64,000 nucleotides of DNA from Methyloversatilis sp. (lineage in GTDB: Bacteria > Pseudomonadota > Gammaproteobacteria > Burkholderiales > Rhodocyclaceae). Positions 20,290 through 60,417 of the stretch are shown in pieces. Position numbers and translations under genes: made by a program. The stretch's first letter is position 1; every line of letters begins with the position of its first letter. The DNA lies in contig NZ_JAUYRO010000088.1 of assembly GCF_030696805.1 (NCBI RefSeq), forward strand, positions 1 to 64,000. Direction: 5' to 3'. The notes beneath the pieces were generated by a model, which saw only the letters and a program-made list of their open reading frames with translations, was not told where the DNA came from and searched no databases.

Positions 20290-20338
20290 TGGCTCCCCGA
20301 CCTGGGCTCGAACCAGGGACCTACGGATTAACAGTCCG
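20290..20338. repeat. Left prophage attachment site (49-bp core)
   Basis: A 49-bp segment identical to 60342-60390, matching the 3' part of tRNA-Asn from the anticodon loop through the encoded CCA. Identity ends sharply on both sides. The tRNA 5' half is missing here, so this copy is the original chromosomal tRNA end displaced by integration. Confidence 0.95.
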
Positions 20339-20454
20339 TTGTCGGACTGACCGGAAACCCGCGTCTGGCAAGGGATAGGGCATCGCGGTGTCTAATATTT
20401 CACCGCTGGAACGTGTCCGGAAAGGCGCATCTGGCCGTGGTTCAGGCGGCTCTA

Positions 20455-21522: not shown

Positions 21523-21523
21523 G

Positions 21524-21790
21524 TCATGCGGCCCGGTCCCGGGCGATAGAAGCAAGAAAACGCTCCCGGTTGGGGCCGGGGGACTTCCGTTCGACGTCGA
21601 ATGCAGGCAATTGGTCGATCGGTCGGCCGGACAATACCGCTTCCGCATGGCTGCGCACAACCAGCGGCCGGCCGTTTGGCTTCGTCGTCACCGTCAGGCC
21701 AAGTTCGCGCAGGTAGCGAACCTGTGCCGCGGCCTGCACCAGCGGCTCGCAGATCCGCGATATCTCGGCGTCGGTCAGGAACATGTCCAT
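21524..21790 (-). CDS. DUF4224-family protein
   Basis: 88 residues. The opening MFLTDAEISRICEPLVQAAAQVRYLRELGL and the later GRPLVVRSHAE match small DUF4224 proteins usually encoded directly beside phage integrases. A role as recombination directionality factor is plausible by position but unproven. The start overlaps the ASCH gene stop codon (ATGA). Confidence 0.75.
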   Translation of the reverse strand: MDMFLTDAEISRICEPLVQAAAQVRYLRELGLTVTTKPNGRPLVVRSHAEAVLSGRPIDQLPAFDVERKSPGPNRERFLASIARDRAA

Positions 21791-22167
21791 CAGTCGTACT
21801 CCGGCACGTTGAAGAACTGCAGCCGGCCCTTGTAGGGCTGGAAGGGTATTGGCCGTGGCCGCTCCAGCAGGAAGCCATGCTCACCCACGAACCATTGCGA
21901 GCTGCTCGCCGTCACGCACCCGGTGATGGTGACAATGCCGCACAGACCACCTTTCGGAAGATCGTCGAAGCTGGGCAGACCGAAGTCTGTACCGAACTCG
22001 GCGATCAGGCTGTCGCGGATCTGCTCGACGTCGGCGCGGGTGGCCGACTTGCTGGCGTGGATCAGGCAATCGCCGCGAAAAGTGGTTGGCCAGTCGCGGT
22101 TCTCGATGTCTTTGTGGCCGGCGACGATGAGCCAGGCCCACGGTTGGCGGATAGACAGGGCGATCAT
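21790..22167 (-). CDS. ASCH-domain protein
   Basis: 125 residues with the ASCH signature MIALSIRQPWAWLIVAGHKDIENRDW and later GGLCGIVTI. ASCH folds resemble PUA domains and bind RNA or modified nucleotides. It overlaps the upstream DndC-like gene by 4 bp, so the two are probably translated together, and it may recognise a modification made or used by that enzyme; this link is inference. Confidence 0.85.
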   Translation of the reverse strand: MIALSIRQPWAWLIVAGHKDIENRDWPTTFRGDCLIHASKSATRADVEQIRDSLIAEFGTDFGLPSFDDLPKGGLCGIVTITGCVTASSSQWFVGEHGFLLERPRPIPFQPYKGRLQFFNVPEYD

Positions 22168-23402: not shown

Positions 23403-23692
23403 GGCTTTCTCCACCGCAGTGCGCCGGCTGATGATTCACGCACTACGTAGCTTCTCTTCAGCGCATGCCAGCCATGCTTGCAGGATGCCTCGCACGATTT
23501 ATATCCGGGGCCGCCCTTGTCACCGTAATCAACGGCCCCACAGCGCGCACACTCGAAAACGGGCTGCGAGCAGTTGTCTGTGAAGTCGTGCGGACAATGC
23601 CGCCCGCCTATGGATACCAAGGCGTGCCCGGCTGCGCAAAGGTCCGCCCCACCGAGCGCAGCGGCCTCCGCGATCAGGAATTTCAGATTCAT
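23399..23692 (-). CDS. Small phage protein with Cys/His metal-binding motifs
   Basis: 97 residues. Cysteines and histidines are arranged as HCPHDF, FECARCG and YKSCEASCKHGWH, suggesting one or two zinc sites. No family recognised. Coupled to both neighbours by 4-bp overlaps. Confidence 0.6.
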   Translation of the reverse strand: MNLKFLIAEAAALGGADLCAAGHALVSIGGRHCPHDFTDNCSQPVFECARCGAVDYGDKGGPGYKSCEASCKHGWHALKRSYVVRESSAGALRWRKP

Positions 23693-30582: not shown

Positions 30583-30872
30583 GCGCGCACCCTTCTGGCG
30601 GCCGGCGCTGCCTTCCGTGCGACCTTCTCTGCCGCCGATTTCGCCTCTGCCAGTGTCTGGAAGCCGCGCTCGGTGCCGATGCACGCGTTGTCGCTGCACC
30701 ACGGCTGGCACGGGTTCTTCGGTGGCGTGGTTGAGCGGTAGGCGCAGTACTTGCCGCGATGCACGCCGGGCACGGCCGGGAAGTGGGCGACCCAGACCGG
30801 CGCGTGAAGGTGGCGCCAGATGCGCAGGCCGTAGTGCTGCTCGGGGGCGTTGAAGGTGTTTGCCATCGCCAT
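30579..30872 (-). CDS. Small phage protein of unknown function
   Basis: 97 residues from ATG 30872 (ATG 30866 also possible). Contains YGLRIWRHLHAPVWVAHFPAVPG and Cys-bearing PCQPWCSDNAC, then a basic Ala/Lys-rich tail. No family recognised. Overlaps genes on both sides. Confidence 0.55.
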   Translation of the reverse strand: MAMANTFNAPEQHYGLRIWRHLHAPVWVAHFPAVPGVHRGKYCAYRSTTPPKNPCQPWCSDNACIGTERGFQTLAEAKSAAEKVARKAAPAARRVRA

Positions 30873-33568
30873 CAAGCCTCGAAACACCAGCACTTGACCG
30901 ACTGCGGCTTGGTCACCGGGTTGCTGCTGTTCACATGCACGCGCTTGTTGTAGGCCTCATGCAGGCGCGAATTCACCGTGCGCACGTCGATGAACTTGTG
31001 CTGCCGGCTGGTGCGCAGCACGCGCTTCAAGTCAGGGATCGGCGGGAACTTCAGCTTGCGGTCGCCGCACACCTGCTCGAAGTGCGGCAGGCTGATGGCG
31101 ATCACGCTGGTGTCGCGGCTGTGGTTGAGCAGGCCGTCGCTAAATTCGCCGCCGTCTTCGAGGTAATCGAAGATTTCCCAGAATTCGGCGACCAACGGGT
31201 GGTCGGCGCTGATCGCCTCTTGGCGTGCCTTGGCGCACTCGATCAACTGGTTCCAGCCGGCGGCGGCGTAGTGCTTCGGCAGGATGCCGATGCGCACCAG
31301 GCACAACACCAGCGCCATGATTTGTGCGTGGTTCTTGATCACGCGCACGTTGCGTATCTCGCGCACGGCCGACAGGGCTTTCTCGGCCTCGGCAACCTTC
31401 TCCACGAAGCACTTGAGCACCTCTTCTTCACGCTGCGCCGCGCGCAAAATGAAGCCGCTCACGCTTTCCATTTCGGTGCGTTCGAGCTGCTCGGCGGCAG
31501 CGCGTGACTGCGGCGTCTGGGCGCTGCGGTCGAAGTGCAGATGCACGATGCGACTGAGGATGGCCTCGCTCGCATTCACATCTGCGTTTTGGCTGATCAC
31601 CACCGCGCCTCGGAACGGCGGCTCGTAGGTCGCGTTGCCGCCGTCTTTCACGCCGCGCGCGCGCACGCTGCGGCCGTTGTAGGCGGTTTTCAGTTCATCC
31701 CAGTCGAAGCCGCCCTTCTTCGAGTCGTCGCCGCGGTCGGCTTCGATGAGCACCACCGGCAGGTTGCTCACCTGGGCGAAGTTGCGCGCCCGCGCGGCCA
31801 GCGTCGATTTCGAGGGGTCGAAGCCTTCGTAGTCGAGCCGGCCGCAGAGCTTCCACAGAAACTCGATCAGCGTTGATTTGCCGGCGCCCGGCTCGCCCAC
31901 CACCTCGAGGAAGGGGTAGCTCTTGGCCAGCGCGCGGATCTGCTCGGCGTACAGCGCACCGAACCAGAAGGCCAGCGCCACCACGCCCTTGGCGCCGAAG
32001 GCCTCCCATATGGCGTCGACCCACTCGGTGGTGAAGCGCTTCGCGTCGGGGTTGATCTGCAGACCGACCGAGCCGTTGAGGCTCTTGACCGAGAGGCGGC
32101 CGATCTCGAAGTAATCGTCGTCGTTCAGCTCATAGGTGCGGCCCTTCGACACCGCCACGTTGCCAAAGACGTAGCAGGTGTGCTCGCGGCTGTAGCCGAT
32201 GAAGTCGATCGTTTCAACGCTGGTGATGAACCTGAGCTGTTGCTTCCACAGCGCATCGAGCATGCCGGTGCTGCCGGTGTAGATGGCGCCCTGCGCCATG
32301 CCGAGCAGCCGCTTCTTGAACTCGGCACCGCTGGCCAGCTGCGCCGACGTGAAGGTGTTTTTCACCGGCGCCGTGTCGTTCGGGAAGCTGACGCGCAGGT
32401 AGTACCAGCTGTCATCGGTGACGCTGTCGCGCTGGTAGTAGAGCGCCTGCGGGTAGCAGGTCGCGATCTCGTTCACCGCGTGCGCGTTGGCCAGCGCGCG
32501 TTCGCGCACCTCTTGCTTCGAGAGTTTCTTTTCGCCGTCTTCCTCCTCGATCGCATTGGAGGCGGCGGTGTACTTCTCGAGGTCGAGCTTGAACCAGTAG
32601 AGCCGGTTGCCGAACTCGAACGGGAAGCTGCTGCCGGCGCCGCGCTGGTACATCAGCAGCGCCTTGTCGCCCGCCGATTGCGCGGTGAGCAGCGCGCCGT
32701 GGTACAGGTAGGTGTCGATGTCGCTGGGCTTGAGCCGGTCGCGCTGGAACATGTCGTTCCAGTCGAGCTTTGCCCGGCCGGTCTGCGGGATCTGCGCGGC
32801 GATGGTTGTCCAGCCCGCCTCCTGCGATGCCTTGACCCACTTGCGCGTGAAGCTGCGCCCCGCCTTGTCGGCGTCGAGCGCCCATATCACCTTCGGCCGA
32901 TCGACCTTTGCTGCCGCGCAGGCCTCGGCCAGCGCGGCCAGGCTGGCGGCGCAATCGTTGTTGCAGCTCAGGGCTGACACCGCAGTGATGCCGACATGCA
33001 GCAGCGCGATGGCGTCGAAGATGCCCTCGACGATCCACAGCTCGCGGTTGCCCTTGATGTCGGTCAGGTCAATGCCCGGCGGCGCCCACCAAGTGTGCGC
33101 GTAGCTGCCGCGGAATGTGGCCTTGCGGCTCCCGAAGCGGCCGGGCTGGTCGATGATGCGTTCCCAGTAGCCGCCACCCTGCAGCGCGAAGCGCACCGTT
33201 GAGCTGCCCGCCTTGATCGAGGGGTCGAAGTAGGTCTCTTGTGTGTACCAGCCCTTGATGCGCGCCAGATCGAAGCCGCGCGCCATCTTGAGATACGCGT
33301 CGGCGGCGGCGTACGGGTTTTCAGGGGTGACCGGGTGGCGCTCGGTCCAGCGCTCGAACAGGTCGGGGTACAGCTCTTTCACGTGGTACTCGGCGCCGCA
33401 CTTCGAGAGGCGGTCGCACTTCAACACCCACGGCGATTCCTGCCATGTCCAGAGGCTCTTTTTTCCGCACTGGGGGCACACACCCTCGCGCAGGTGCTTG
33501 TCGCGTGGCTTGAACGCGTAGTCCCTGTCGAGGCGGGCGGTGATGTCGGCGTGCAGCCTGGAATCCAT
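30872..33568 (-). CDS. Toprim primase/helicase-like replication protein
   Basis: 898 residues. The N-terminal zinc ribbon (CPQCGKKSLW...LSKCGAEYH) and Toprim domain (LWIVEGIFDAIALL with the catalytic Glu, then WALDADKAG with the DxD) indicate a DnaG-like primase. A central linker is followed by an ATPase with Walker A VVGEPGAGKSTLIEF and Walker B VVLIEADRG, as in DUF927/helicase-type proteins. The layout resembles the P4 alpha protein in logic (primase plus helicase) rather than P2 GpA. It is the only obvious replication initiator candidate in the prophage. Confidence 0.87.
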   Translation of the reverse strand: MDSRLHADITARLDRDYAFKPRDKHLREGVCPQCGKKSLWTWQESPWVLKCDRLSKCGAEYHVKELYPDLFERWTERHPVTPENPYAAADAYLKMARGFDLARIKGWYTQETYFDPSIKAGSSTVRFALQGGGYWERIIDQPGRFGSRKATFRGSYAHTWWAPPGIDLTDIKGNRELWIVEGIFDAIALLHVGITAVSALSCNNDCAASLAALAEACAAAKVDRPKVIWALDADKAGRSFTRKWVKASQEAGWTTIAAQIPQTGRAKLDWNDMFQRDRLKPSDIDTYLYHGALLTAQSAGDKALLMYQRGAGSSFPFEFGNRLYWFKLDLEKYTAASNAIEEEDGEKKLSKQEVRERALANAHAVNEIATCYPQALYYQRDSVTDDSWYYLRVSFPNDTAPVKNTFTSAQLASGAEFKKRLLGMAQGAIYTGSTGMLDALWKQQLRFITSVETIDFIGYSREHTCYVFGNVAVSKGRTYELNDDDYFEIGRLSVKSLNGSVGLQINPDAKRFTTEWVDAIWEAFGAKGVVALAFWFGALYAEQIRALAKSYPFLEVVGEPGAGKSTLIEFLWKLCGRLDYEGFDPSKSTLAARARNFAQVSNLPVVLIEADRGDDSKKGGFDWDELKTAYNGRSVRARGVKDGGNATYEPPFRGAVVISQNADVNASEAILSRIVHLHFDRSAQTPQSRAAAEQLERTEMESVSGFILRAAQREEEVLKCFVEKVAEAEKALSAVREIRNVRVIKNHAQIMALVLCLVRIGILPKHYAAAGWNQLIECAKARQEAISADHPLVAEFWEIFDYLEDGGEFSDGLLNHSRDTSVIAISLPHFEQVCGDRKLKFPPIPDLKRVLRTSRQHKFIDVRTVNSRLHEAYNKRVHVNSSNPVTKPQSVKCWCFEA

Positions 33569-33660
33569 GTCTTTGTATTTCTTTTGGCAAAAAGGGTCCC
33601 TGCGCGCGGCGAAATGGCCGAGCGGCGGGTGGTGTTTTCAGGGGTTTCGGGCGGCGGCTG

Positions 33661-33948
33661 TCAGCCGCTCGGAGGGCCGGTTTCGATCAGTGAAAGCTGC
33701 AGTTCATCGCATGGCGCGTTCTGCAATTTCTTGCTTCGGGTGATCGCGTAGTTGAACGGCCAGCCCGACTGCTTTTCTTTGGGCAGCAGGCTGTCGCCTA
33801 CGGTGCGAACGATGCTGATCATCGCCACGAATATGTGGCTGCACCGGCCATTGGTGCAGTGGTAGTACTGCTCGCGGCTCACGTCGGACATCGGGCGTGA
33901 AGTGCGGATGTGCGCGGTGTGGCCGCAGATCGGGCAGGGCATGCTCAC
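33661..33948 (-). CDS. ogr: Ogr/Delta-type zinc finger late activator
   Basis: 95 residues. CPICGHTAHIRTSRPMSDVSR and YYHCTNGRCSHIFVAMIS form the Cys4 finger of the Ogr/Delta family (CPxC, 20-odd residues, CxxxxC). These proteins activate P2 late promoters. Unlike P2, where ogr lies between D and att, this copy sits in the early operon directly after the CII-like gene, with which it overlaps by 4 bp. Confidence 0.88.
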   Translation of the reverse strand: MSMPCPICGHTAHIRTSRPMSDVSREQYYHCTNGRCSHIFVAMISIVRTVGDSLLPKEKQSGWPFNYAITRSKKLQNAPCDELQLSLIETGPPSG

Positions 33949-34427
33949 GGCCGTCTCCGTCCGCGTGAGGGCTGCACCAGCGCCTTGAGCCGAGCCTTCA
34001 GCGCGTGCAGCGCCTGCTCATGGCGGTAGATCGCCTGGTCGATCTCGGCCATTTCCGAGTGCTCGATGTGCTGGTCGGCAAGGGCGGCGTCGATCGCCGC
34101 GCCCACTTGGCCGTGGCTGAGCCAGACGTGCGTGATCATTTCGAGCACCGCCAGATCGCTGGGCTGCACGTCGGCGTCGACGCGTATCGCGACATGGCTG
34201 TGGTTTGCGCACAGCGCATGGAGCACGGCGTAGTCGCTCGTGACGGCCATGGTGGCGTCGGCATCGGCGAGAGAGGCCGAGTTGCCGGGAAACTCCGGGT
34301 TGGCCTTGTTGCGCAGCACGCCGCCCTTGATCGGGTGACCGAACTGGGTAAGCACCACGGCAAGGGCGTCTGCCCCGCCGGGGTAGCGGTGCACGGTGCC
34401 GTGGAAGGCGCGGAGCACGCTGTTCAT
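33945..34427 (-). CDS. CII-like (CP76-type) phage regulatory protein
   Basis: 160 residues from ATG 34427 (AGGGG upstream). The N-terminus MNSVLRAFHGTVHRYPGGADALA and GGVLRNKANPEF match phage regulatory CII/CP76 proteins, which have a helix-turn-helix. The rest is helical. Second gene of the early operon. Confidence 0.82.
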   Translation of the reverse strand: MNSVLRAFHGTVHRYPGGADALAVVLTQFGHPIKGGVLRNKANPEFPGNSASLADADATMAVTSDYAVLHALCANHSHVAIRVDADVQPSDLAVLEMITHVWLSHGQVGAAIDAALADQHIEHSEMAEIDQAIYRHEQALHALKARLKALVQPSRGRRRP

Positions 34428-34482
34428 GCGCGGCCCCTGCATTCGCATGGTGTATGCAACTGGATGTGCCCCGAGAATGACA

Positions 34483-34668
34483 TCAGGCGGCCTCACTCAT
34501 CGCGTTGATGAGCAGCGTGCGGGCCATGTTGGCCAGGCTGCGCCCTTCGCGCTGCGCCAGCTCTGACAACTGGCGTTTTTCTTCAGCCTGCAGCACCACG
34601 GCCACGCGGGGTTGCGTGCCCTTGCCCTTGGGCGTGCGCGCGGCTGATGGTTTTGCGGCGGCGTTCAT
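34483..34668 (-). CDS. Small ribbon-helix-helix-like protein (candidate Cox/excisionase analogue)
   Basis: 61 residues from ATG 34668. A basic disordered start is followed by TQPRVAVVLQAEEKRQLSELAQREGRSLANMARTLL, the strand-helix-helix of RHH DNA-binding proteins. First gene of the leftward early operon and divergent from the repressor, the position of cox in P2. That function is inferred. Confidence 0.7.
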   Translation of the reverse strand: MNAAAKPSAARTPKGKGTQPRVAVVLQAEEKRQLSELAQREGRSLANMARTLLINAMSEAA

Positions 34669-34697
34669 GTCGTCTATGCTCCGAAGTACGTTAAAGC

Positions 34698-34739
34698 ACA
34701 CTATGACCACACTATTGTATGAAAAAGCGTACATGTCAA
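34698..34739 (-). promoter_or_regulatory. Early promoter with tandem operator half-sites
   Basis: On the minus strand TTGACA (34734-34739), a 17-bp spacer and AATAGT (34711-34716) make a strong sigma-70 promoter for the early operon. Two direct repeats ACACTAT (34698-34704 and 34709-34715) are 11 bp apart, one helical turn, and overlap the -10. The -35 overlaps the repressor start codon. Direct-repeat operators are typical of P2-type C repressors. Confidence 0.65.
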
Positions 34740-35233
34740 GCAACAGATGTTCGGTAGAGCAAACATTTTCTGAACGGCTGGAGGAAGAGCGGAAGCGCCT
34801 TGAGCTGAATCAGGACGACGCGGCGCTCATCGTGAACCGCAGGCGGCAGGCGTGGGCGGCTTGGGAACGCGGCGAAACCAGCCCTGACGCCCGCGAGCTG
34901 GATCTACTCGCAGCGCGCGGCTTCGACGTCGTGTTTCTGCTCACCGGCGATCGTTCGCCAGAGTTGCTCAGTCGTGACGAATCGCAGCTGCTGGATGATG
35001 TGCGCGGCATGGACGATCGCGCCCGCCGCATGTTGCGGGCCATGGTCGACGCGTGGCACGGCTGGGCGCCGCGTGCCATGCCGACCGGTAGTGCGACGGC
35101 CGTCTATGACGCACGGCCCGAGTCCGCCTCCGCGGCCACACTGCATGACGTGGCACTCGACCGTAAGCAGGCCTTGCCTGGCGAGCGTGTAAAGCTCGGG
35201 CGTACCAGCGCGGGGCGCAAGCGCACGGTCTAG
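34733..35233 (+). CDS. Phage repressor (helix-turn-helix, C-type)
   Basis: 166 residues from ATG 34733 (ATG 34703 is an alternative). FSERLEEERKRLELNQDDAALIVNRRRQAWAAWERGETSPDARELDLLAARGFDVVFLLTG is an XRE-type helix-turn-helix domain. The C-terminal half is Ala-rich without a LexA-like protease motif, so induction would not be by RecA-assisted self-cleavage. It is the only gene of the immunity switch on the plus strand. Confidence 0.82.
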   Translation: MSSNRCSVEQTFSERLEEERKRLELNQDDAALIVNRRRQAWAAWERGETSPDARELDLLAARGFDVVFLLTGDRSPELLSRDESQLLDDVRGMDDRARRMLRAMVDAWHGWAPRAMPTGSATAVYDARPESASAATLHDVALDRKQALPGERVKLGRTSAGRKRTV

Positions 35234-35487
35234 CGCGAATGCTCTTCGTCAGGCCACAGCAGCATCTGGGCCAGCTGCTGCACGCCGTAGTAGGTCAGCG
35301 CCGGGTGTGCGTTCGCGGCGCCGAACCATCCCTGTCGGGTGAGCATTTCCGGGGTGATCACGGTGTAAGCCGCCCCGATGATCTCGCCGCGCTCGGCTGC
35401 TTTGGCAAGCAGTTCAAATCCGCGCTCGGTCTCGCGTGCGGCGGGCGAGGAAAAGGGAAGAACGATCCGCTGTGAAGTGCCGCGCAT
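35230..35487 (-). CDS. Small phage protein of unknown function
   Basis: 85 residues from ATG 35487 (GAGG eight bases upstream); ATGs at 35493 and 35520 are alternatives. GFELLAKAAERGEIIGAAYTVITPEML and HPALTYYGVQQLAQMLL look like a family recurring in prophages. Convergent with the repressor, with overlapping ends. Confidence 0.55.
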   Translation of the reverse strand: MRGTSQRIVLPFSSPAARETERGFELLAKAAERGEIIGAAYTVITPEMLTRQGWFGAANAHPALTYYGVQQLAQMLLWPDEEHSR

Positions 35488-35637
35488 TGCCATTGCCTCG
35501 TGACGTTGTCGTTGAGGCATTCTTTAGGCTCAGATGCTCGTAGATTGCAAATCGCTGTTAAACGGGCGTGTAGGCGTCACGTTTAGTCCAAAAGGACTAT
35601 GCACAAAGACATACGACCAGGACATGGAGGGCAGGCA

Positions 35638-35883
35638 ATGCCAGAGTTCAGCGTTTCAGTGATCACCCTGATCGGCTTCTGGCATGCGGGCGCGGTGCGC
35701 GGCGCGCAGCAAGGCCGAGGTTTCTTTGTTCGAAACGTGCTCGCCGGCGTGGTTGCCTCGATCGCGGCGATTGTGGCGTTCGGCACCGCCGTGGCGGGCG
35801 GGGGCTGGTGGGTGATAGCGGTAGTGCTCGCTGCCCTGGGCGCGGCCGCGGCCTCGCAAGCGCACCGAATGCCTAAGCCATGA
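35638..35883 (+). CDS. Small membrane protein, candidate moron gene
   Basis: 81 residues from ATG 35638 with GGAGGG seven bases upstream, better than the track start. Two hydrophobic helices ([20 protein letters not shown] and [16 protein letters not shown]). It is on the plus strand, opposite to the flanking phage operons, between gene D and the immunity region; this suggests lysogenic expression. Confidence 0.65.
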
Positions 35884-36116
35884 GGTTACTGTTGTTCGCC
35901 GTCGCGCTGGCAATCGCTACCCCTACGGTGCTCTCGCGGGGCAACGGCCGTCAGCCGTGCGACCGCGGTGCAGGCGGTATTTCGCACTGTCATGGCGATC
36001 GTTTCGTGTGCAAGAACGGACGCTTGAGCGGCTCGCAGAAAGTGTGTAACCCCGCGGAGCATGGCACTGATTCCGGTGGCAAAAACGGTACCCGGGCGGA
36101 TTCAGTCCGCCGCTGA
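35880..36116 (+). CDS. Small exported Cys-rich protein, candidate moron gene
   Basis: 78 residues with a signal peptide ([19 protein letters not shown]) and a short mature domain [31 protein letters not shown] with four cysteines likely to form two disulfides. Similar mini-domains occur in small secreted proteins of other phages and bacteria. It overlaps the previous gene by 4 bp, so both form one operon. Its 3' end overlaps the end of gene D on the other strand. Confidence 0.65.
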
Positions 36117-37367
36117 CACCCCGACCGCCGGCTTTATTTCCAGATCTACCGAGGTGACGAATCCGCTGTTGTCGAGCGTGTGGCGGCAGCGGGTGATGAT
36201 CCAGCCGGTGCTGTCGATCTCGGGCTTGAAGCCGCGCACGGTGACCGGCAGCTCGGGGAAGAGGTCCGCGCGGCCTTCGGCGAGGGTGAGCGTGAAGGTC
36301 GCCATGCCGCGCTTGAGGCGCTTCCATTCGGCGTCGGCGCCGCGCAGGGCGTTGGTGCGGTTGGCGTACACGTGCCGCAGCACCTTGTTGTTTTCGCCGC
36401 TGGGCTCGGTGGGCGGCGGGGCGGCGGGCTTGGGTGAATCGACGCCTGCCAGCACGCTGGCCTTCTTGGTGCGGGCCTTGTCTTTCCAGTACTGCGCGCG
36501 CACGCCGGTGTAGTCCTGCCGGTTGCCCTGGCGCTGTATTTTCTGCCACTCCTCGCGCGCGGCGCGCTCGGCGTTCTTCTTCGATACGTAGGTGTGGCTC
36601 AGGGTTTTCACGCCGCCCACCGGGCCGCTGCCGTCGCCTGGCAGGTAGGGCGCATCGTCGCTGACGAACACGTGCGATCGCTCGGCGGCGCGCACGTCGT
36701 GGTAGTGGGCGACGACGCCGGTGTAGCCGGCGCGGTCGGCCACGGCGAAGCGGTGGCTGTCGCCGCTCGATCGCTGAATGATCACGGTGGGCAGCGTCTG
36801 ACCGCTGGCCGTGGTGGCCTGGCCGGCACGCATGAAGATCAGCCGGCCGGCCTTCACGGTGGCAATGACGTCGAGGTCGCGCGCCATGCGCGTGAGCAGG
36901 TTCACATCGCTCTCATGGGTCTGGTCGGTGTGCTCGATCGCGAGTGTGTCGAGATCGCCGCTGATGGCCGGCGTGAGGCCATTGCGCTCGGCGATGGTGC
37001 GCACCACGTCGCCGCACGTCACGTCGAAGTAGCTGCATTCGCGCTTGGTGGATAACCCGGTGCGCAGATCTGCGCTGCGCGCGCGCAGGGTGAGCACGTC
37101 GGGCGGGCCGTTGTGTTCCAGCTCATCGACCAGGTAGCTGCCCTTGTCGGTCAGCGCCTCGCCCTTCCAGCCGATCCACAGTTCAACGCGTGCGCCGCGC
37201 GGCGGCAGGGCGAGCAGGCCATCGGTGTCGTCGAGGTCGATTTCGAGCGTGTCGGCTTCGAAGCCGCGGTTGTCGGTGAGGGTGAGGCTGGCCAGCCGTG
37301 GGCGGATGCGGTCGGTGATGTCTTCGCCATCGACGCGCAGGCGGTATGCGGGCTGGCGCGCCGTCAT
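36102..37367 (-). CDS. D: Late control protein D (baseplate hub, VgrG-like)
   Basis: 421 residues. [45 protein letters not shown] is the standard opening of P2 GpD, a homologue of the T4 gp27 baseplate hub. [31 protein letters not shown] is also conserved. Last structural gene of the FI operon, overlapping U by ATGA. Confidence 0.92.
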
Positions 37368-38077
37368 GCCGGGCGCACCAGCAGGTCAAGGATGTTGCGC
37401 AGCTCGGGCGCCGGCATGCTGGCCAGGTCTTCGAACTGCGCGAGGTTGGGCAGGCCGAGGGCGGTGAGATCGGGGAAGGTGGCTACGGCGGTGATGAGGT
37501 CGCCCATGGCCGAAAGGTCGGGTAGCGGCGGCAGCTGCAGGTCGGTGAGGTCGGGCAGCGTGGGCAGGGTGAGGCCTACGCGCTCGGCGAGGTCGGTGAG
37601 GCCGCCGAAGCCGTCGATCAGGTCAGCGCCGATCACCGTGCCGAGCTTGTCGAGCAGTGTATCGGCGACGGATTGGGCCTGATCGATCATCAGCCCCAAG
37701 GGCACGTCGGCGCGCTTGAGCGATATCGAAAATTCGATGCGGCGCGCGGCGCCGTCGTCGAAAAACAGGGTGCGCGTGGTCTGCAGCGATTCAACGACGA
37801 ACATGCCGTGTATCCAGCCCGAGCCCTCTACCAGCGGCAGCGCTTCGCCTTGGTCGGCCATGGTTTCGAGCATGTCGATCGAGAGCCGGCCGCCGGTGAG
37901 TTCCGGGTGCAGCACGCCGGTGAGGGTGATGGTGTCGGCATCGGGGCCGGTGAATTGCAGCGCCGGGCGCTCGCCCACACGCGATTGCTCGGCGTGGCGC
38001 CACGACATGGCGCGCTGCATCTCCTGAAAGGGCAGGGTGCGCAGCTCGAAAACGAAGAGGCCGAGGGCGAGCATCAT
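37364..38077 (-). CDS. U: Phage tail protein U with a C-terminal extension
   Basis: 237 residues. The first 140 or so (LFVFELRTLPFQEMQRAMSWRHAEQSRVG, LTGVLHPELTGGRLSIDMLETM, WIHGMFVVESLQTTRTLFF) are P2 GpU-like; P2 GpU itself is about 159 residues. The remaining part is a Leu/Pro/Asp-rich extension with repeated LPDL-type units. It probably caps or terminates the tail tube. Confidence 0.88.
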   Translation of the reverse strand: MMLALGLFVFELRTLPFQEMQRAMSWRHAEQSRVGERPALQFTGPDADTITLTGVLHPELTGGRLSIDMLETMADQGEALPLVEGSGWIHGMFVVESLQTTRTLFFDDGAARRIEFSISLKRADVPLGLMIDQAQSVADTLLDKLGTVIGADLIDGFGGLTDLAERVGLTLPTLPDLTDLQLPPLPDLSAMGDLITAVATFPDLTALGLPNLAQFEDLASMPAPELRNILDLLVRPA

Positions 38078-38083
38078 GATGGG

Positions 38084-40279
38084 CTACTCCATATCGGTGA
38101 GGCGGCTGCGGCCGCGCGCGGCGGTGGCGCGCTCACGCTGTTCGAGCTGGCGCTGCACTTCGGCCGCCATGTCCTGCGGCGACTGGCCGGGCTGCTGCAC
38201 AAGGGTGATGGGCGCGCTGGTGGCGTAGGTGACGCTGCCGCCACCGCCGGCCATCAGCGGCGCGGCAGCGGCGGATGATGCACCGCTGCCGATGCCGAAC
38301 TTCGCCGCCAGCTCTTGCGCGGCGCGCACCTTATCGAGCACCCACGTGATCTTCGAGACGAAAAACCGCTCGATGCCATCGGCGATGAAGCGGAACACGT
38401 CGACGAAGGCGCTCTTGATGCGGTCCCAGTTGTTGTAGATCGTGAAGGCGGCGATGCCGATGGCCGTCAGCACAGCGAGCATCGGCCCGGCCGCGCCGAC
38501 CACTGCGACCACAACCGGCGCTACCAGCGCGAGGCCCAGCTTGACCAGCGCCAGAGGGCCAAGTACTGCGGCAATGCCCAGTGCGAGAGCGCTCACGCCG
38601 GTCACCAGCGCGGCGATGGCCGCTGCACCCGTGACGATGCCTTGGGTGAGGCCCGGATTCGCCTGCATCCACCGGTGAAGGCCGTCGAGCATGGTGTCGA
38701 CGGTGTCGAGCAGCGAAAAGAGCACGCTCTTGAGCACACTGCCGCCCTGCGCGCTGTCTGCAAACAGGCGGTTGAGCGTCATCTGCCAGCGAGCCGACAA
38801 GGTCGTGTTGCGGGCGTCCGCTTCGCGCGCCATCGAGCCGCGCGCCTGCTCATCATTCACCAGCGCGAGCTGGCGGCGGTACTCGCCCATGTTCTCGGCG
38901 ATCTTGGCGACGTCGTCGCCGTATTCCTTGCCGAAGAGGCCGACCGCCGCGCCCAGCTGCTGCTCGCGCGGCAGGGCCTTGATGGCTTCGAGCACGCGCA
39001 GGATGGTGCCGGTGCTGTCCTTGATCATGCCGGTCTGCACGGCGTCGGGCGACAGGCCGATCGAGTGCAGCGCGGCTTGAAACTTCGCCGGCTGATTGCC
39101 GGCGATGGCCAGCTCACGGATCAGCGCGTTGGCGCCGGTGGCGGCCACCTCGGCCGAGGCGCCCAGGCTGAGGAACGTCGAGCCAAGCGCCGCGGCATCC
39201 TTGAACGACATGCCCACCGTCTGGCTGATGCCGGCGATGCGCTGCATCACCTCGATGATGTCCGCACCCTTCGACTGCGCGTTGTCGTCGAGCCAGTTGA
39301 TGGTGTCGCCGAGCTGGCTGATGCTGGCGATCGGGATCTTGTAGAGGTTGGCAATGCGGGCGATGTTTTCGCCGATCTCGCCGGCGGCGGCATCGAACGC
39401 CGTGGCGGCCATGGCGGCGGTGTCGGCAAAGGCGAGCAGATCGGCCTTGCCCTGTATGCCCATGCGCGCGCCAGCCTCCACCAGCGCTGCAATCTCGGTG
39501 GTCGCCATCGGGATGCGGCGCGACATGGCCACAATCGCGTCGGCCATGTCGTAGTAGGTCTGGGTGTAGCGGCCGTTGGCGTCGCGCGCGCCCTCGACCT
39601 GCCGCGCCACGCCGAGCATGGCGTCTTCGAACGTGGCGTAGTTCTTGACCATGTTGAGTATCGGCAGGCCCATGGCCACACCGGCTGCTGCACCGCTGGC
39701 GCCAGCGCCGGCCAGCGCGTTGCGCCGGCTCATGGCCTGGTCGTAACGTTCGTGCGCCGCGCGGGCGCGGGCCATCTGCTCGCCGTGAGTCTTGAGCCGG
39801 GCCGTCTGCTGTGCAAGGGCCTGGTTGGCGGCGTCAATGCGGCCCTTCAGTTCGCGCTGGTGCGTGGCGAGCTTGGCCGTGGGCATGCCGGCACGCTCCA
39901 GCTCGAGCCGGGTGCGCTGCTGGCGCTCGGCCAGCGTGGCGTGCGCATCTTTCAGCCGTGCGGCTTCTCGGCGCGCGGCTTCGAAGGCGCGGGTCTGCGC
40001 CTTGGTCGGTGCCTCGGTCGCCTTCATGGCCGTGGCCAGTTCTTTCACCTTCGCCTGGGCGTTGGCCAGCGCGCCAGCGGTGGCGTGAAAGTCGCGTGTG
40101 GTGGTGCGGAACGATTCAAGCTTCTTCTGCTGCTGCTCAAGTTCGCGCAGCCGGTCGCGCGCGCCCTTCACCGCCTTCGAGAGCCCGTTTGACGATTCGA
40201 GCACCCGCTTGAGCGGCGCGGTGGCGCGGTCGACCGCGTCGAGAATGACCTGCAGGCGAAGGGAACGGTCAGATGACAT
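38084..40279 (-). CDS. T: Tail tape measure protein
   Basis: 731 residues. Long N-terminal coiled coil (residues about 25-180), the TP901-type core (YYDMADAIVAMSRRIPMATTEIAALVEAGARMG), and hydrophobic helices near residues 560-640 (ITGAAAIAALVTGVSALALGIAAVLGPLALV). It sets tail length and exits during DNA injection. Sits directly downstream of the E/E' tail chaperones, as in P2. Confidence 0.92.
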   Translation of the reverse strand: MSSDRSLRLQVILDAVDRATAPLKRVLESSNGLSKAVKGARDRLRELEQQQKKLESFRTTTRDFHATAGALANAQAKVKELATAMKATEAPTKAQTRAFEAARREAARLKDAHATLAERQQRTRLELERAGMPTAKLATHQRELKGRIDAANQALAQQTARLKTHGEQMARARAAHERYDQAMSRRNALAGAGASGAAAGVAMGLPILNMVKNYATFEDAMLGVARQVEGARDANGRYTQTYYDMADAIVAMSRRIPMATTEIAALVEAGARMGIQGKADLLAFADTAAMAATAFDAAAGEIGENIARIANLYKIPIASISQLGDTINWLDDNAQSKGADIIEVMQRIAGISQTVGMSFKDAAALGSTFLSLGASAEVAATGANALIRELAIAGNQPAKFQAALHSIGLSPDAVQTGMIKDSTGTILRVLEAIKALPREQQLGAAVGLFGKEYGDDVAKIAENMGEYRRQLALVNDEQARGSMAREADARNTTLSARWQMTLNRLFADSAQGGSVLKSVLFSLLDTVDTMLDGLHRWMQANPGLTQGIVTGAAAIAALVTGVSALALGIAAVLGPLALVKLGLALVAPVVVAVVGAAGPMLAVLTAIGIAAFTIYNNWDRIKSAFVDVFRFIADGIERFFVSKITWVLDKVRAAQELAAKFGIGSGASSAAAAPLMAGGGGSVTYATSAPITLVQQPGQSPQDMAAEVQRQLEQRERATAARGRSRLTDME

Positions 40280-40325
40280 GGTGGCACCTCAAAGCATGCG
40301 GGGCGGCCGAAGCCGCCCCGCGTGA

Positions 40326-40442
40326 TCACTGATCCGGCTGCGTCCGGACCCTCGCGCGCTCACGCCAGGCGAGCAGCTCGGCCAGGCTGAGCGCGCACAT
40401 GTCCGACAGCGGCCAGTGGAACACCACGGCAATGTCGGCCAT
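40326..40442 (-). CDS. GpE'-type tail chaperone segment (38 aa), missed by the ORF track
   Basis: Reads MADIAVVFHWPLSDMCALSLAE and continues to a stop at 40326, the short P2 GpE family sequence with the H-W-P/E-L-x-x-W pattern. It is in the -1 frame relative to E, so it is probably made mainly as the C-terminal part of a frameshifted E-E' protein, although the ATG at 40442 could also be used. Confidence 0.82.
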   Translation of the reverse strand: MADIAVVFHWPLSDMCALSLAELLAWRERARVRTQPDQ

Positions 40443-40450
40443 GGCGTCTT

Positions 40451-40771
40451 CTAGCCGGGCGGGGCAACCAATCCCGTCGTCGTCGCTGCTGCGCCCGGCG
40501 AGTCGGCCGGCAGCAGCGACTTCGGCAGTAAAAAACTGCTGATCTCCATCGCGCAGGCCATGAGGTCAGCCGGGTCCATGTTCGCCACCTCAGGCGCAGT
40601 GAGCGCAGGCTCGGTGATGCGCGGCAGCACCGCCATGACCGCGCCGACTTCCATGCGCAGCAGGTCAGAGAGCACCAGGCCGCGCAGCTCGCCGGCAGCG
40701 GGCTTGCGCAGGGTGATGGCGGTGATGCGGGTGTCACCGCGGGGGATGGGGGTTTCGAGGGCGATGTTCAT
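40451..40771 (-). CDS. E: Tail assembly chaperone E
   Basis: 106 residues from ATG 40771. LETPIPRGDTRITAITLRKPAAGELRGLVLSDLLRMEVGAVMAVLPRITEPALTAPEVANMDPADL is the P2/Mu-type tail assembly protein. A slippery heptamer at 40529-40535 would let a fraction of ribosomes shift to the -1 frame and continue to 40326, giving a 148-residue E-E' fusion. Lies between the glycosidase cassette and the tape measure gene. Confidence 0.88.
   Translation of the reverse strand: MNIALETPIPRGDTRITAITLRKPAAGELRGLVLSDLLRMEVGAVMAVLPRITEPALTAPEVANMDPADLMACAMEISSFLLPKSLLPADSPGAAATTTGLVAPPG
40529..40535 (-). promoter_or_regulatory. -1 ribosomal frameshift slippery site T TTT TTA
   Basis: On the minus strand the E frame reads AGT TTT TTA CTG, a canonical X XXY YYZ heptamer. 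Slipping back one base gives an open frame of 67 codons running through the GpE' sequence to the stop at 40326. P2 uses the closely related T TTT TTG at the same place. GC-rich sequence downstream could provide a stimulatory structure. Confidence 0.8.
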
Positions 40772-40778
40772 GAGGTGC

Positions 40779-41873
40779 TCACGCGTAAATGAAACCTTTG
40801 GATGTTCTGACCACGTATTGCCCGTCGACGAGACGAACTTCCAGCATGTTCGTACCGCACAGCTTGTTGATCGCGTCCCACGCCTGCGAGATAACGGGCG
40901 AAGTGACCGGGTTTCCCGACAGCGCAAGGGGCCCGTCGTAATCGTAGAGCAGCATCGCACTCACACCCTCGATGATGCAGCCCAGCGCCTGTCTAAAAGC
41001 CCACTTTGCATACAACTGATCTTTGTTTGGGCTGCTGGAAATCGCGATGTGTTCGGGCGATGAGGGTGACGATGCATAACCTGTTTCGCCCCAGATGATC
41101 GGCTTGCCGGAAACACCGGCGGCCGCGAGGTTGGTACGAAGAGCACGCATGTAAACGCCGACGTTTGTACCCTGACCTGTCCGCAGGAACGGGTCATCGT
41201 CCCACCACCGGTAGTACGGGTGAACACACACCGCATCCAGCCAATCCTTTCCCGTGCCGCCGGCCCCGTCACTGGCCGCGAACAGACCGGCTAAGTGGCC
41301 CGCGGCACTCCAGTCGCTGGGTGTGGTGACCACGATTTCAGGATCCACTGCTTTCGCCGCGATGTAGACGGCGCGGCAGATCGCCGCCATCTGAGCCGCG
41401 GTTCCCTTATAGAAACCGCTGCTGCCGTCCCATGCGGGTTCGTTCCAAGGTTCGATGTACCGAAAGAAACGACGTCCGCCCGCGTTGTAGCGTTGTAGCA
41501 GCGCTGTGACGAATGCAGTCACGAAAGCCGGATCAGCAGGCGATGCGCCACTTGGGTTGCCGTACGGATCGGAAAAAGCACCTCCGAGACGTGCAAAGGC
41601 AGGGGTGCCGCTCAATACATACCAGCCTTGAATACCGCGAGCTTCGAGTTCGGCAACGATGATGTCGAGTTGAGTCCAGTCGTACACGCCCGCTGAAGGG
41701 TTCTGGGTGACCCACAGCAGATATTTGTTGTCCGCCGTCTTGTGATCCCAGATGCGGTAGGTCTTATAGCCGAACGATGGCTCGGCGGTGTCCGTGGGAT
41801 AGCCGTTCGGCCACCGATGAACGTTGATACCGAAAAAGTCCTCGGGTACGGCGACGAATCCGGACCACTTCAA
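40779..41873 (-). CDS. Clan GH-A-type glycoside hydrolase within the tail operon
   Basis: 364 residues. A TIM-barrel glycosidase: acid/base Asn144-Glu145 in EPWNEPAW (end of strand 4) and nucleophile Glu263 in IIWGETGYAS (strand 7), with barrel strands FFGINVHRW, GWYVLSGTPAFA, VVTTPSDWS and LDAVCVHPYY between. Overall style is GH39/GH5-like. It has no signal peptide, so it would reach its substrate in the virion. It sits between FII and E, a junction normally occupied by nothing in P2. Base composition is visibly lower in G+C than the flanking genes. Substrate unknown; a capsular or O-antigen polysaccharide is likely. Confidence 0.82.
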   Translation of the reverse strand: MKWSGFVAVPEDFFGINVHRWPNGYPTDTAEPSFGYKTYRIWDHKTADNKYLLWVTQNPSAGVYDWTQLDIIVAELEARGIQGWYVLSGTPAFARLGGAFSDPYGNPSGASPADPAFVTAFVTALLQRYNAGGRRFFRYIEPWNEPAWDGSSGFYKGTAAQMAAICRAVYIAAKAVDPEIVVTTPSDWSAAGHLAGLFAASDGAGGTGKDWLDAVCVHPYYRWWDDDPFLRTGQGTNVGVYMRALRTNLAAAGVSGKPIIWGETGYASSPSSPEHIAISSSPNKDQLYAKWAFRQALGCIIEGVSAMLLYDYDGPLALSGNPVTSPVISQAWDAINKLCGTNMLEVRLVDGQYVVRTSKGFIYA

Positions 41874-55602: not shown

Positions 55603-57444
55603 ATGACTGCCGCTACTGCACCACTCGCCGATGCTGAATTGACCGCGGCGGCGAACCAGATCAACGCTGAAGCGCTGGCGCCGCCACGGTTCGAGCCCAC
55701 GGATGTGAGCCCGCGACGGCGCGCGCGCGCCCTCTACTGGCAGGGCTGGAGCTTGAGCGCGATTGCGGAAGAGCTTCTCCTCAGCCCGAACACGGTACAG
55801 AGCTGGAAGCGCCGTGACAATTGGGACAAGTCGAGCGCGGTGCAACGGATCGAGTCATCGATCGAGATGCGCATGCAGGTGCTGGTGGCGAAGGAAAAGA
55901 AGACCGGCGGCGACATGAAGGAAATCGATCTGCTGGGCCGCCAGATCGAGCGCATGGCACGCGTGCGCCGCTTTACCGAGGGCGGTGGCAACGAGGCAGA
56001 CCTGAACCCGAAGGTGGCAAACCGGAACAGCGGGCCGCGCAAGGCACCCGAGAAGAACGCGATCAGCGAAGAGCAGGCCGCAACGCTGCATGAGGCGTTC
56101 GTTGATTCGCTGTTTGGCTACCAGCAGGTGTGGCGTGAAGCGGGCGAGCTGGCTCGCATTCGCAACATTCTGAAGTCGCGGCAGATCGGGGCGACCTGGT
56201 ACTTCGCCCGCGAGGCGATCGACGACGCGATACAGACCGGTCGTAACCAGATCTTCCTGTCGGCTTCGAAGGCTCAGGCCCACGTGTTCAAGCAGTACAT
56301 CTTGGAGTTCGTGCGCGAGGCGATCGGCGTTGAATTGAGGGGCGACCCGATCATTCTGCCGAATGGGGCGACGCTGTACTTCCTGGGCACGAACGCGCGC
56401 ACGGCGCAGAGCTACCACGGCAACCTGTATTTCGACGAGTACTTCTGGACCGCGCGCTTCCAGGAACTGCGCAAGGTTGCATCGGGCATGGCGATGCACA
56501 AGAAGTGGCGCCAGACCTACTTTTCGACGCCGAGCAGCGTGACACACGAGGCGTATCCGTTCTGGACGGGTGCGCTTTACAACCGCGGCAGGCCGCGCGA
56601 CCAGCGGGTTGAGATCGACACCAGCCACTACGCGCTGAAAAACGGCGTGCTGTGCCCTGACGGGCAGTGGCGGCAGATCGTGACTGTGGAAGACGCGCTG
56701 GCGGGCGGGTGCAACCTGTTCGACATCGAGCAGCTGCGAAACGAGTACGGGCCGGCCGAGTTCGCGAACCTGCTGATGTGCATGTTCATGGACGACTCGG
56801 AGAGCGCCTTCCCGTTGACCATGATGATGCGTTGCATGGTCGATAGCTGGGATGCGTGGACGGACCTCAAGCCGTTCGCCGCGCGACCCTTCGGCAATCG
56901 GCCGGTCTGGGTCGGCTATGACCCGAGCGACACGGGCGACAGCGCGGGGCTGGTGGTGCTGGCGCCGCCCATGGTGCCGGGCGGCAAGTTCCGCGTGCTT
57001 GAGCGCTTGCAGCTGCGCGGGAACGACTTCGAGGAGCAGGCCGGGCACATCTTGCAGGTCACCAAGCGCTACAACGTGCAGCGGATCAGCATCGACGTCA
57101 CCGGCATGGGCTCAGCGGTGATTCAGCTGGTGCGCAAGTTCTTCCCGGGTGCCCAGGCGATCAATTACAGCGTGGAAGCGAAGGTGCGCATGGTGCTCAA
57201 GGCGCAGCACGTGATCACGCGCGGCCGGCTGGAGTTCGACGCCGGCTGGGCTGATCTAGCGGCCAGCTTCATGCAGATCCGCAAGGTGATGACGGCGAGC
57301 GGCCGGCAGATGACGTACGAGGCGAGCCGCAGCGAAGAGGCCAGCCACGCCGACCTTGCGTGGGCAACGATGCACGCGCTGATCAATGAACCGATCGAAG
57401 GCGCCAGCGAAACCAACGGCAGCATTCTGGAGATGACCGAATGA
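55603..57444 (+). CDS. P: Terminase large (ATPase) subunit P
   Basis: 613 residues from ATG 55603 (the track counts from GTG 55594). An N-terminal helix-turn-helix (ALYWQGWSLSAIAEELLLSPNTVQSWKRRDNWD) precedes the ATPase with ILKSRQIGATWYFAREA, LYFDEYFWT (Walker B) and the nuclease domain VGYDPSDTGDSAGLVVL. It drives DNA packaging. Overlaps Q by ATGA. Confidence 0.95.
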   Translation: MTAATAPLADAELTAAANQINAEALAPPRFEPTDVSPRRRARALYWQGWSLSAIAEELLLSPNTVQSWKRRDNWDKSSAVQRIESSIEMRMQVLVAKEKKTGGDMKEIDLLGRQIERMARVRRFTEGGGNEADLNPKVANRNSGPRKAPEKNAISEEQAATLHEAFVDSLFGYQQVWREAGELARIRNILKSRQIGATWYFAREAIDDAIQTGRNQIFLSASKAQAHVFKQYILEFVREAIGVELRGDPIILPNGATLYFLGTNARTAQSYHGNLYFDEYFWTARFQELRKVASGMAMHKKWRQTYFSTPSSVTHEAYPFWTGALYNRGRPRDQRVEIDTSHYALKNGVLCPDGQWRQIVTVEDALAGGCNLFDIEQLRNEYGPAEFANLLMCMFMDDSESAFPLTMMMRCMVDSWDAWTDLKPFAARPFGNRPVWVGYDPSDTGDSAGLVVLAPPMVPGGKFRVLERLQLRGNDFEEQAGHILQVTKRYNVQRISIDVTGMGSAVIQLVRKFFPGAQAINYSVEAKVRMVLKAQHVITRGRLEFDAGWADLAASFMQIRKVMTASGRQMTYEASRSEEASHADLAWATMHALINEPIEGASETNGSILEMTE

Positions 57445-58460
57445 GCGAAAACACCACGCCGGCACAGCCGGTACCCATCGAGGCCTTCACGTTCGGAGAT
57501 CCGGTGCCGGTGATGGATGGCCGGGAAATACTCGACTATCTGGAGTCGGCGAACATGGGGCGGTGGTACGAAACGCCGATCAGCTTCGAGGGGCTGGCGC
57601 GCAGCGCGCGATCGGCCCCGCACCACAGCAGCCCGATGTACGTGAAGCGCAACGCGCTGGTGAGCACGTTCGAGCCTCACTCGATGCTCAAGCGCGAGCA
57701 CTTTTCGCGGCTGGCGCTGGACTTCATCATCTTCGGCAACACTTATGTCGAACGCGCAAACTCGCGCACCGGGCGGGCGTTGTCGCTGACCCCGTCGCCT
57801 GCGAAGTACACACGACGCGGTGTGGATCTGGACACCTACTTCTTCGTGCGCGGGTTTCGACAGGAGCATGAGTTCGCGCGCGGCTCGGTGTTCCACATGA
57901 TGGAGCCGGACATCAATCAGGAGGTGTATGGCCTGCCGGAGTACTTGAGCGCGCTCAACAGCGCCTGGCTCAACGAGGCCTCGACGCTGTTTCGACGGCG
58001 GTACTACCTGAACGGGTCGCACGCCGGATTCATTTTGTACATGACGGACGCGGCCCAGAACCCGGACGACATCGACAAGCTGCGCGAGGCGATGCGCCAG
58101 GCGAAGGGGCCGGGCAATTTCCGTAACCTGTTCATGTACGCGCCGAACGGCAAGGAGAAGGGCCTGCAGATCATTCCGGTGGGCGAGGTGGCCGCGAAAG
58201 ACGAGTTTTTCAACATCAAGAATGTCACGCGCGACGATCTGCTTGCGGCGCACCGCGTGCCGCCGCAGCTGATGTCGATCATCCCGAACAACACCGGCGG
58301 CTTCGGCGACATCCGTGACGCGGCCGAGGTGTTCTGGATCAACGAAATCCAGCCGCTGCAGGAGCGGTTCAAGGAACTGAACGAATGGGTAGGTGAAGAG
58401 GTGGTGCGGTTCAAGCCATACAGCCTGGTCGCCCAGCCGGGTGCCGCGATGGTGCCCTGA
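57441..58460 (+). CDS. Q: Portal protein Q
   Basis: 339 residues. EAFTFGDPVPVMDGREILDYLE, YETPISFEGLARSARSAPHHSSPMYVKRN and FLMYAPN-type segments plus RDDLLAAHRVPPQLMSIIPNNTGGFGDI are the P2 GpQ/PBSX portal family. It forms the dodecameric vertex through which DNA enters. Confidence 0.95.
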   Translation: MSENTTPAQPVPIEAFTFGDPVPVMDGREILDYLESANMGRWYETPISFEGLARSARSAPHHSSPMYVKRNALVSTFEPHSMLKREHFSRLALDFIIFGNTYVERANSRTGRALSLTPSPAKYTRRGVDLDTYFFVRGFRQEHEFARGSVFHMMEPDINQEVYGLPEYLSALNSAWLNEASTLFRRRYYLNGSHAGFILYMTDAAQNPDDIDKLREAMRQAKGPGNFRNLFMYAPNGKEKGLQIIPVGEVAAKDEFFNIKNVTRDDLLAAHRVPPQLMSIIPNNTGGFGDIRDAAEVFWINEIQPLQERFKELNEWVGEEVVRFKPYSLVAQPGAAMVP

Positions 58461-59525: not shown

Positions 59526-59879
59526 CGTCGACCGGCCACCAGCGCCGCGCGAACCCCAGCCTGCCCACACGGCCCCGCCCGCGCCCCAGCGCGGCCGCGG
59601 GCGCCGCCGCTCGCCCAAATGCACCAAACCAGTGCGAAAAACGACCCTCAGACCGAAAACCCGTCCATCACCACCCACCGCGCGCGGTCGAGACCCCGCC
59701 CCGCCCGCTCGCTTCATCGACTTCGAATCGTGCGCCGGTGCCTCCTGGTGTATCCGCAGCCAGGACGCATCGAAAAGACAGATCGTCACCCGCTTCCACC
59801 GGTGCGCACCGGTGCACAAAGGGGTGCATGGCCACAACCAGCCTCATCGGCCACTGAAATCGTCAGCGACGTCGCAAAA
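59526..59879. other. GC-rich non-coding stretch, possible cos region
   Basis: No convincing gene; the small ORFs here have no start signals or domains. The first half is very G+C-rich, with runs such as GGGCGGGGCGGGG on the minus strand. In P2 the cos site lies next to Q on this side, so cos is expected in or near this interval; the exact site was not identified. Confidence 0.35.
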
Positions 59880-60153
59880 AGGTAACTTCGGTAATCGTTT
59901 CTTTTTATTCAACCTAAGCGATTGATTTAAATAGGATGTTTTGGTTACCTTCGAAAGGTGATTTTAGGTAATCAAAAAGGTAACTATTTCTAATTCATTG
60001 AAATAAAAGGGGTTTTAATTCGAGAATGTGACCTTGTAATTAGGTAATTTGATTACTTTAAAGTTACCTATAAATCACCTTCTGATTATTCGATAGAACG
60101 GCTTTCAGCAAGGCTTTGAAGCTGTTTTCGAAAACAAGTTACCTTAGTTACCT
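59880..60153. repeat. AT-rich array of about eleven AGGTRAY motifs
   Basis: Within 274 bp of strikingly AT-rich sequence, the motif AGGTAAC/AGGTAAT (or AGGTGAT) occurs on the plus strand at about 59880, 59889, 59956, 59966, 59978 and 60042 and on the minus strand at 59943, 60062, 60073, 60137 and 60146. No ORF. The layout is that of an iteron-type replication origin or a multi-site operator. Confidence 0.8.
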
Positions 60154-60311
60154 TTTTCCGAAGACGCCAAAAATCAGAGCCTTCACGCGTGCGGCGTTGA
60201 CGCCTGCCTGTCGCGTGCGTGCTGGTGTTCGAGGGATGTGATCAGGCGAGGAAATGGCGCCGATATTAGACAGCTGTCTAATATCCAGACCCATTTCGGG
60301 TAAAAGAAAAA

Positions 60312-60341: not shown

Positions 60342-60390
60342 TGGCTCCCCGACCTGGGCTCGAACCAGGGACCTACGGATTAACAGTCCG
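60342..60390. repeat. Right prophage attachment site (49-bp core)
   Basis: Identical to 20290-20338. Lies within the intact tRNA-Asn gene, covering the encoded CCA through the anticodon loop, so the phage restored the tRNA 3' end on insertion. Confidence 0.95.
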
Positions 60391-60417
60391 GCGCTCTACC
60401 GACTGAGCTATCGGGGA
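60342..60417 (-). tRNA. tRNA-Asn (anticodon GTT)
   Basis: 76 nt including encoded CCA. The minus strand folds as a cloverleaf: acceptor TCCCCGA/TCGGGGA, anticodon loop CTGTTAA with GTT, T-loop GGTTCGAGCCC. This is the integration target and stays functional because the prophage supplies an identical 3' part. Confidence 0.97.

Follow-up and report, generated by a model that had tools for sequence, protein, structure and literature searches.

A dyad-symmetric array of short repeats as the putative replication origin of P2-like phages with a Toprim primase-helicase

Prophage setting of the array

The window analyzed here, a 64,000-nt stretch of Methyloversatilis sp. DNA with a G+C content of 65%, contains a prophage delimited by a 49-bp att core at positions 20290 to 20338 (attL) and an identical copy at 60342 to 60390 (attR), the latter located in the 3' part of a tRNA-Asn gene (60342 to 60417, minus strand). 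The prophage is P2-like: its integrase, Ogr, CII, tail, capsid, terminase, and portal genes match PHROGs and Pfam families, and it has the virion gene set of phage P2 and belongs to the same family (Peduoviridae). However, P2-type phages replicate by the rolling-circle mode, with gpA (as annotated) nicking at the origin, whereas the phage in the window has a Toprim primase, and the repeat array described below is absent from the gpA phages examined. No gpA-type nicking protein was detected among the main ORFs and the subset of small ORFs scanned, and the replication region is filled by the gene for an 898-aa Toprim primase/AAA+ helicase of PHROG 1139 (30872 to 33568, minus strand), here proposed to be the initiator. 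The tyrosine integrase gene, identified by PHROG and Pfam matches, lies at 20455 to 21660 (minus strand), and the gene for the P2 gpQ-type portal protein, which sets the handedness of the array, lies at 57441 to 58460 (plus strand). A gene for a PAPS reductase-like protein (22164 to 23414), which also occurs in relatives such as Dobby, Acica, and Mae-JY29, adjoins DNA methyltransferase genes; together these are perhaps a DNA modification module.

Between the end of a D12 methyltransferase gene (59525) and attR, a cos-like stretch, the array (59880 to 60153), and a pair of TATTAGAC repeats (60264 to 60283) follow one another in this order. The candidate cos core, GGCGGGGCGGGGTCTCGAC (59687 to 59705, minus strand), was compared with the cos sequences of P2 (GGCGAGGCGGGGAAAGCAC) and Smp131 (GGCGTGGCGGGGAGACGAG) (PMC3931495). 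The cos-like stretch is common to the window and Acidovorax phage Acica, and its 45-bp match in Acica was the sole blastn match of the array region; none was obtained in plasmids. The region has no further blastn relatives because arrays of this kind have words and spacing, rather than alignable sequence, in common. A first-pass annotation of this DNA had placed the array between Q and the early genes of the circular phage. The candidate cos and the portal gene do lie on one side of it, but on the other side it faces attP and not the early genes.

Layout of the GGTRAY array

The 274 bp at 59880 to 60153 are the most AT-rich part of the window (G+C content, 0.318) and contain 11 copies of GGTRAY, six of which start on the plus strand (59881, 59890, 59957, 59967, 59979, and 60043) and five on the minus strand (59949, 60068, 60079, 60143, and 60152). 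AGGTRAY accounts for 10 of them, the exception being CGGTAAT at 59890. Dinucleotide shuffling of this stretch yielded means of 0.40 GGTRAY (maximum, 4) and 0.16 AGGTRAY (maximum, 2), and none of the 5,000 shuffles matched the observed counts. Nine of the 15 GGTAAY copies in the whole 64 kb fall within the array. No ORF of at least 70 aa lies wholly within the region; two spurious ORFs enter it from the left and end by 59925. Repeats of one word are thus found above chance in an AT-rich noncoding stretch, as would be expected of an iteron-type origin. The counts, the GC scan, and the ORF list bear out the first-pass annotation, which had described about 11 motif copies in both orientations in a strongly AT-rich, ORF-free region, had pointed out a close pair 9 bp apart (AGTTACCT at 60137 and 60146), and had proposed the comparison with shuffled sequence of the same composition. 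The cumulative GC skew of the circularized phage, a signal dominated by gene orientation, does not point to the array.

The sites form a dyad, which had been missed previously, with its center at ~60017 and the order doublet-triplet-triplet-doublet. In the general layout, inward-facing doublets with sites 9 bp apart stand at about ±137 and ±128, and inward-facing triplets with sites 11 bp apart stand at about ±62, ±51, and ±40. The left outer doublet of the window (59881 to 59895, plus strand) consists of GGTAAC at 59881 to 59886 and GGTAAT at 59890 to 59895, and the right outer doublet (60138 to 60152, minus strand) consists of GGTAAC at 60143 to 60138 and again at 60152 to 60147, both in the 9-bp register. 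The left triplet (59957 to 59984, plus strand) has GGTGAT at 59957, GGTAAT at 59967, and GGTAAC at 59979 in a register of 10 to 12 bp, and the right triplet (60052 to 60079, minus strand) has a degenerate AGTAAT at 60057 to 60052, followed by GGTAAC at 60068 to 60063 and GGTGAT at 60079 to 60074. Measured from the dyad center, the intact sites are at -136/-126, -60/-50/-38, +52/+62, and +126/+136, and 9 of the 10 template positions are met exactly.

Two additional sites are handed: one beside the portal-proximal triplet (59944 to 59949, minus strand; -69 class) and one at 60043 to 60048 (plus strand; +26 class). A consensus scan revealed an exact match to the IHF consensus WATCARNNNNTTR at 59915 to 59927 (minus strand), ~96 bp to the left of the center. 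The AT-rich central spacer (59985 to 60042), a candidate melting region, has an IHF-like site with one mismatch near -20. At the right border, TCGGAAAAA (60153 to 60161, minus strand) is the consensus border of such arrays, as determined from the border composition of 97 of them. The terminal inverted repeats also raised the question of a mobile inverted-repeat element, a candidate that was rejected on the basis of a genome copy number of one and a constant array position in most phages.

Clustered, cooperatively bound sites could also be an operator at which a repressor or activator controls transcription, as the first-pass annotation had offered as its alternative, and CII-like and repressor genes are present in the prophage. 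However, the region contains only a single weak promoter-like match, the same as in shuffles, and none of the genes begins at the array. An operator does not need a symmetric 274-bp layout with fixed inner spacing either, and the repeated word follows the lineage of the primase (see below), as judged by comparison with the primase tree alone. Transcriptional control is accordingly a highly improbable role for the array.

Related arrays and their linkage to the primase

A search for the outer doublet recovered 84 viral contigs, and the genome stretches recovered numbered at least 118. In total, the loci compared, from other phages and prophages, include 97 distinct arrays in which both doublets are present, each with a span of 270 to 277 bp, a mean G+C content of 0.37, sites at ±137, ±128, ±62, ±51, and ±40, and the border TCGGAAAAA. 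The arrays were collected partly by a pattern and a filter that requires the doublets and a span of 250 to 310 bp, so the doublets are given, while the triplets, the narrowness of the span, the extra sites, and the second-side borders are independent of the collection pattern. The two extra sites provide the array with handedness, and where a portal gene was in reach, the orientation of the handed arrays tracked the portal side in 30 of 30 and 36 of 37 cases. There were 108 matches to the IHF consensus WATCARNNNNTTR, distributed over 77 of the 97 arrays, compared to a mean of 3.4 matches in shuffles (~30-fold), and the IHF-type matches occupy fixed positions near -96, ±20, and +84/+96, i.e., in the spacers. 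A decayed prophage of Halomonas QHL1 (9674 to 9814) has lost the middle of its array, and the outer doublets stand 141 bp apart.

Position in these relatives bears on two further roles. The array could represent arm-type sites of the integrase and thus a part of attP, since arm sites likewise are short repeated words, often paired, and the array is located 190 to 460 bp from the attR core. Such a role is, however, fitted by the four TATTAGAC repeats, which are the only copies in the 64 kb and lie two on each side of attP (20390 to 20397 and 20453 to 20460 on the left; the pair at 60264 to 60283 on the right). This is the pattern expected of integrase arm sites, which on sequence grounds they probably are. 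GGTAAY, which should occur in both arms, is absent from the integrase side of attP, near attL. The array of Smp131 is located ~2.4 kb from attP, that of phi3 comes after the primase gene, beyond the integrase, and the integrases of array-bearing phages mostly have little or no detectable similarity to each other. We consider an arm-site function very improbable. The other role is that of a cosB-like packaging accessory bound by the terminase. It would be favored by the short distance, a few hundred bases, that separates the array from the portal gene and the candidate cos, both in the window and in many of its relatives. Yet the distance between the array and the portal gene is ~8 kb in ESSI2, where the array lies past the integrase, ~8.5 kb in PfPro, and ~3 kb in phi3, and the gpA phage Acica has the cos-like stretch without an array. 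A part in packaging is just as remote a prospect as one in integration.

The gene that does accompany the array is the Toprim primase. PHROG 1139 is rare, being present in 21 of 50,697 phage records and in 14 of 300 genomes from the order (~5 of them with full-length, high-scoring matches), but every one of the 27 viral records that bear an array and reach 30 kb or more encodes it. There are 46 array-bearing viral records in all, and the 14 without PHROG 1139 are fragments of less than 30 kb. Among 50 array-bearing genomes, 40 have a PHROG 1139 match (E ≤ 1e-20). Two of the remaining 10 (Dyadobacter and Schaedlerella) are probably chance pattern matches. We also sought among these 10 genomes satellites that borrow the origin, but those inspected are mainly prophage remnants, and in one case the contig probably breaks off short of the replication region. 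Conversely, when the whole records of the named phages with PHROG 1139 were read, the array was present in every one except ZY1, whose array region is missing because the record starts and stops in coding sequence. A GGTRAY or GYRATA array was seen in 18 of 40 primase-bearing viral contigs and not in the other 22; many of these are provirus predictions, and cut ends may account for a part of them. In the gpA phages (one record was left out), a generic template scan with exact 5-mers, a coarse control, gave scores no higher than the background of 4 to 6. The array is thus constantly linked to one replication gene family, as an iteron-type origin would be, and it is conserved in relatives with the same replication genes, the comparison that the first-pass annotation had recommended. 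The phage-plasmid p2 of Azospirillum sp. TSH100, whose structural genes are of the HK97 type, also encodes a primase of the PHROG 1139 family (45%) beside RepA and ParA; no GGTRAY array was seen in it.

Two complete circular "plasmid" records of P. aeruginosa are such phages, with the primase and an array meeting 10 of 10 template positions; they may be either induced phage DNA or stable plasmids. Together with a ParB-domain gene in D14A and a partition ATPase gene in phi3, these two deposited relatives would be consistent with a centromere-like partition site serving a plasmid-like prophage state. However, neither the scanned genes of the window nor most relatives showed a ParA/ParB pair. The primase, by contrast, is constant, and it is the primase family that the geometry tracks. 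The chance that the array is a partition site is accordingly slight.

Diverged primases are accompanied by other words in the same geometry: GYRATA-type words, GGTTAC (2F_1), CRTCACA (ESSI2), TGTCA(G) (PfPro), GGWAYAT (Mae-JY29), and GGAACA (phi3). On the 10-position template, the arrays of phages with diverged primases meet 6 to 10 positions, compared to at most 3 in the rest of the same loci. The exception is phi3, with only 4 of 10 positions in register, because its triplets stand closer together. The phi3 array (7402 to 7720) lies directly 3' of the primase gene, and its triplets are nearer to each other than those of any other array. On the primase tree, in which long branches leave some joins uncertain, the seven word classes need six changes, which is the minimum, and the six GYRATA phages form one clade. 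In this comparison, which includes few independent switches, the word is specific to the primase lineage, as would be expected of an origin and its cognate initiator. Likewise with few independent switches, 28 primase columns, spread along the whole protein, are class specific, their residues switching with the word. Residue 857 (window positions ~30998 to 31000) is H or R throughout the compared primases of the GGTRAY class and P in 6 of 6 of the GYRATA class, which makes it a weakly indicated candidate for a specificity position.

Primase model and putative origin function

An AlphaFold2 model of the primase, based on 51 window and viral sequences, has a mean pLDDT of 87. Its fold matches in the PDB are Cch of SCCmec (5dgk; E, 1e-14), which is the best, SaPIbov1 Rep (8tch; E, 3e-11), PriRep1 (7pds), and DnaG polymerase domains; as modeled, the protein is similar to Cch and SaPI Rep, both self-loading initiator helicases, and, in addition, to DnaG. 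The C-terminal 113 residues (786 to 898; 30875 to 31213, minus strand) are predicted with confidence (pLDDT, 91) to form a small domain. Its fold matches are weak (best E, 0.42), some of them being winged-helix proteins, and we propose it as the iteron reader. The helicase model also weakly matches SV40 large T antigen (1svl; E, 6e-4). The SV40 large T origin is a dyad-symmetric initiator site, like the array here, but the virus is eukaryotic, its origin-binding domain is N-terminal, and both the word and the layout differ from those of the window.

Several known systems combine similar elements. SaPI and PICI origins have two sets of short iterons around an AT-rich region, as here (PMC6092414; PMC7581432), and their initiator is a helicase that loads itself and in some cases is fused to a primase; its fold, of the Rep/Cch type, is also predicted for the window primase. 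However, the carrier is here a complete P2-like phage, the primase part is of the Toprim (DnaG) type, and the fixed inward-facing doublet-triplet-triplet-doublet arrangement over 270 to 277 bp with IHF-type sites differs from the SaPI/PICI origins. These origins also adjoin rep, 3' of the initiator gene. In the window, the array is at 60 kb and the primase gene at 31 to 34 kb (~26 kb apart, or ~10 to 13 kb across the circle), and the two are adjacent only in phi3. We do not classify the array as a SaPI/PICI origin because it is not 3' of the initiator gene. Cch2 uses its C-terminal domain to bind short direct repeats of an intergenic putative origin (PMC7581432), but that site has only three 5-nt repeats and belongs to a staphylococcal cassette, whereas the array has 11 sites and belongs to a phage. 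In P4, the alpha protein unites a Toprim primase and a helicase with a winged-helix domain, through which it binds the origin repeats (PMC4234260). The window primase may be likened to alpha with its ori and crr by this description; unlike the phage in the window, P4 is a satellite.

The array is very likely the replication origin of this P2-like phage, presumably bound by the primase-helicase. The proposal of an origin with initiator iterons, in a phage that replicates otherwise than P2, made in the first-pass annotation has thereby gained support from the linkage to the primase, the lack of the array in the gpA phages examined, the joint change of word and primase, and the IHF-type sites. 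By analogy, the best reading of the mechanism is that of the SaPI/PICI origins, and a working mode with two head-to-head helicase assemblies and IHF appears reasonably probable. Replication would be preceded by excision and circularization of the phage. The Toprim primase-helicase would then use its C-terminal domain to bind the inward-facing sites, and each half-array would seed one helicase assembly, resulting in two assemblies loaded head to head, possibly as a double hexamer. IHF may bend the spacers and so fold the doublets onto the triplets, after which the AT-rich center would melt. Self-loading of the AAA+ helicase domains onto the single strands would follow, with priming of synthesis by the Toprim domain as the last step. 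The outcome would be theta-type replication in place of the nicking by P2 gpA.

More broadly, a widespread branch of the P2-like phages seems, on balance, to have an origin type with a frozen geometry of about ten sites, fixed spacing, and IHF bends, in which word and initiator change together. This type would be previously undescribed; no description of the origin was found in the open literature searched. If so, natural origin-specificity groups would arise among P2-like phages. The array offers a located, testable origin for the many P2-like phages that have a Toprim primase-helicase instead of gpA, and it is an easy diagnostic signature of carriers, which occur in Pseudomonas, Halomonas, Stenotrophomonas, Burkholderiales, and others. 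The fixed spacing and changing word also provide a natural data set on how an initiator and the specificity of its multiple sites change together, and they bear on the compatibility of coresident prophages and satellites.

A separate observation was made in plasmid p3 (NZ_CP077991.1), a P2-like phage circle that has an extra 10 kb (31110 to 41194). This segment carries a P2-type capsid gene of its own, together with ogr, genes for DUF927 and Toprim proteins, and an integrase gene, and is possibly a satellite integrated in the phage.
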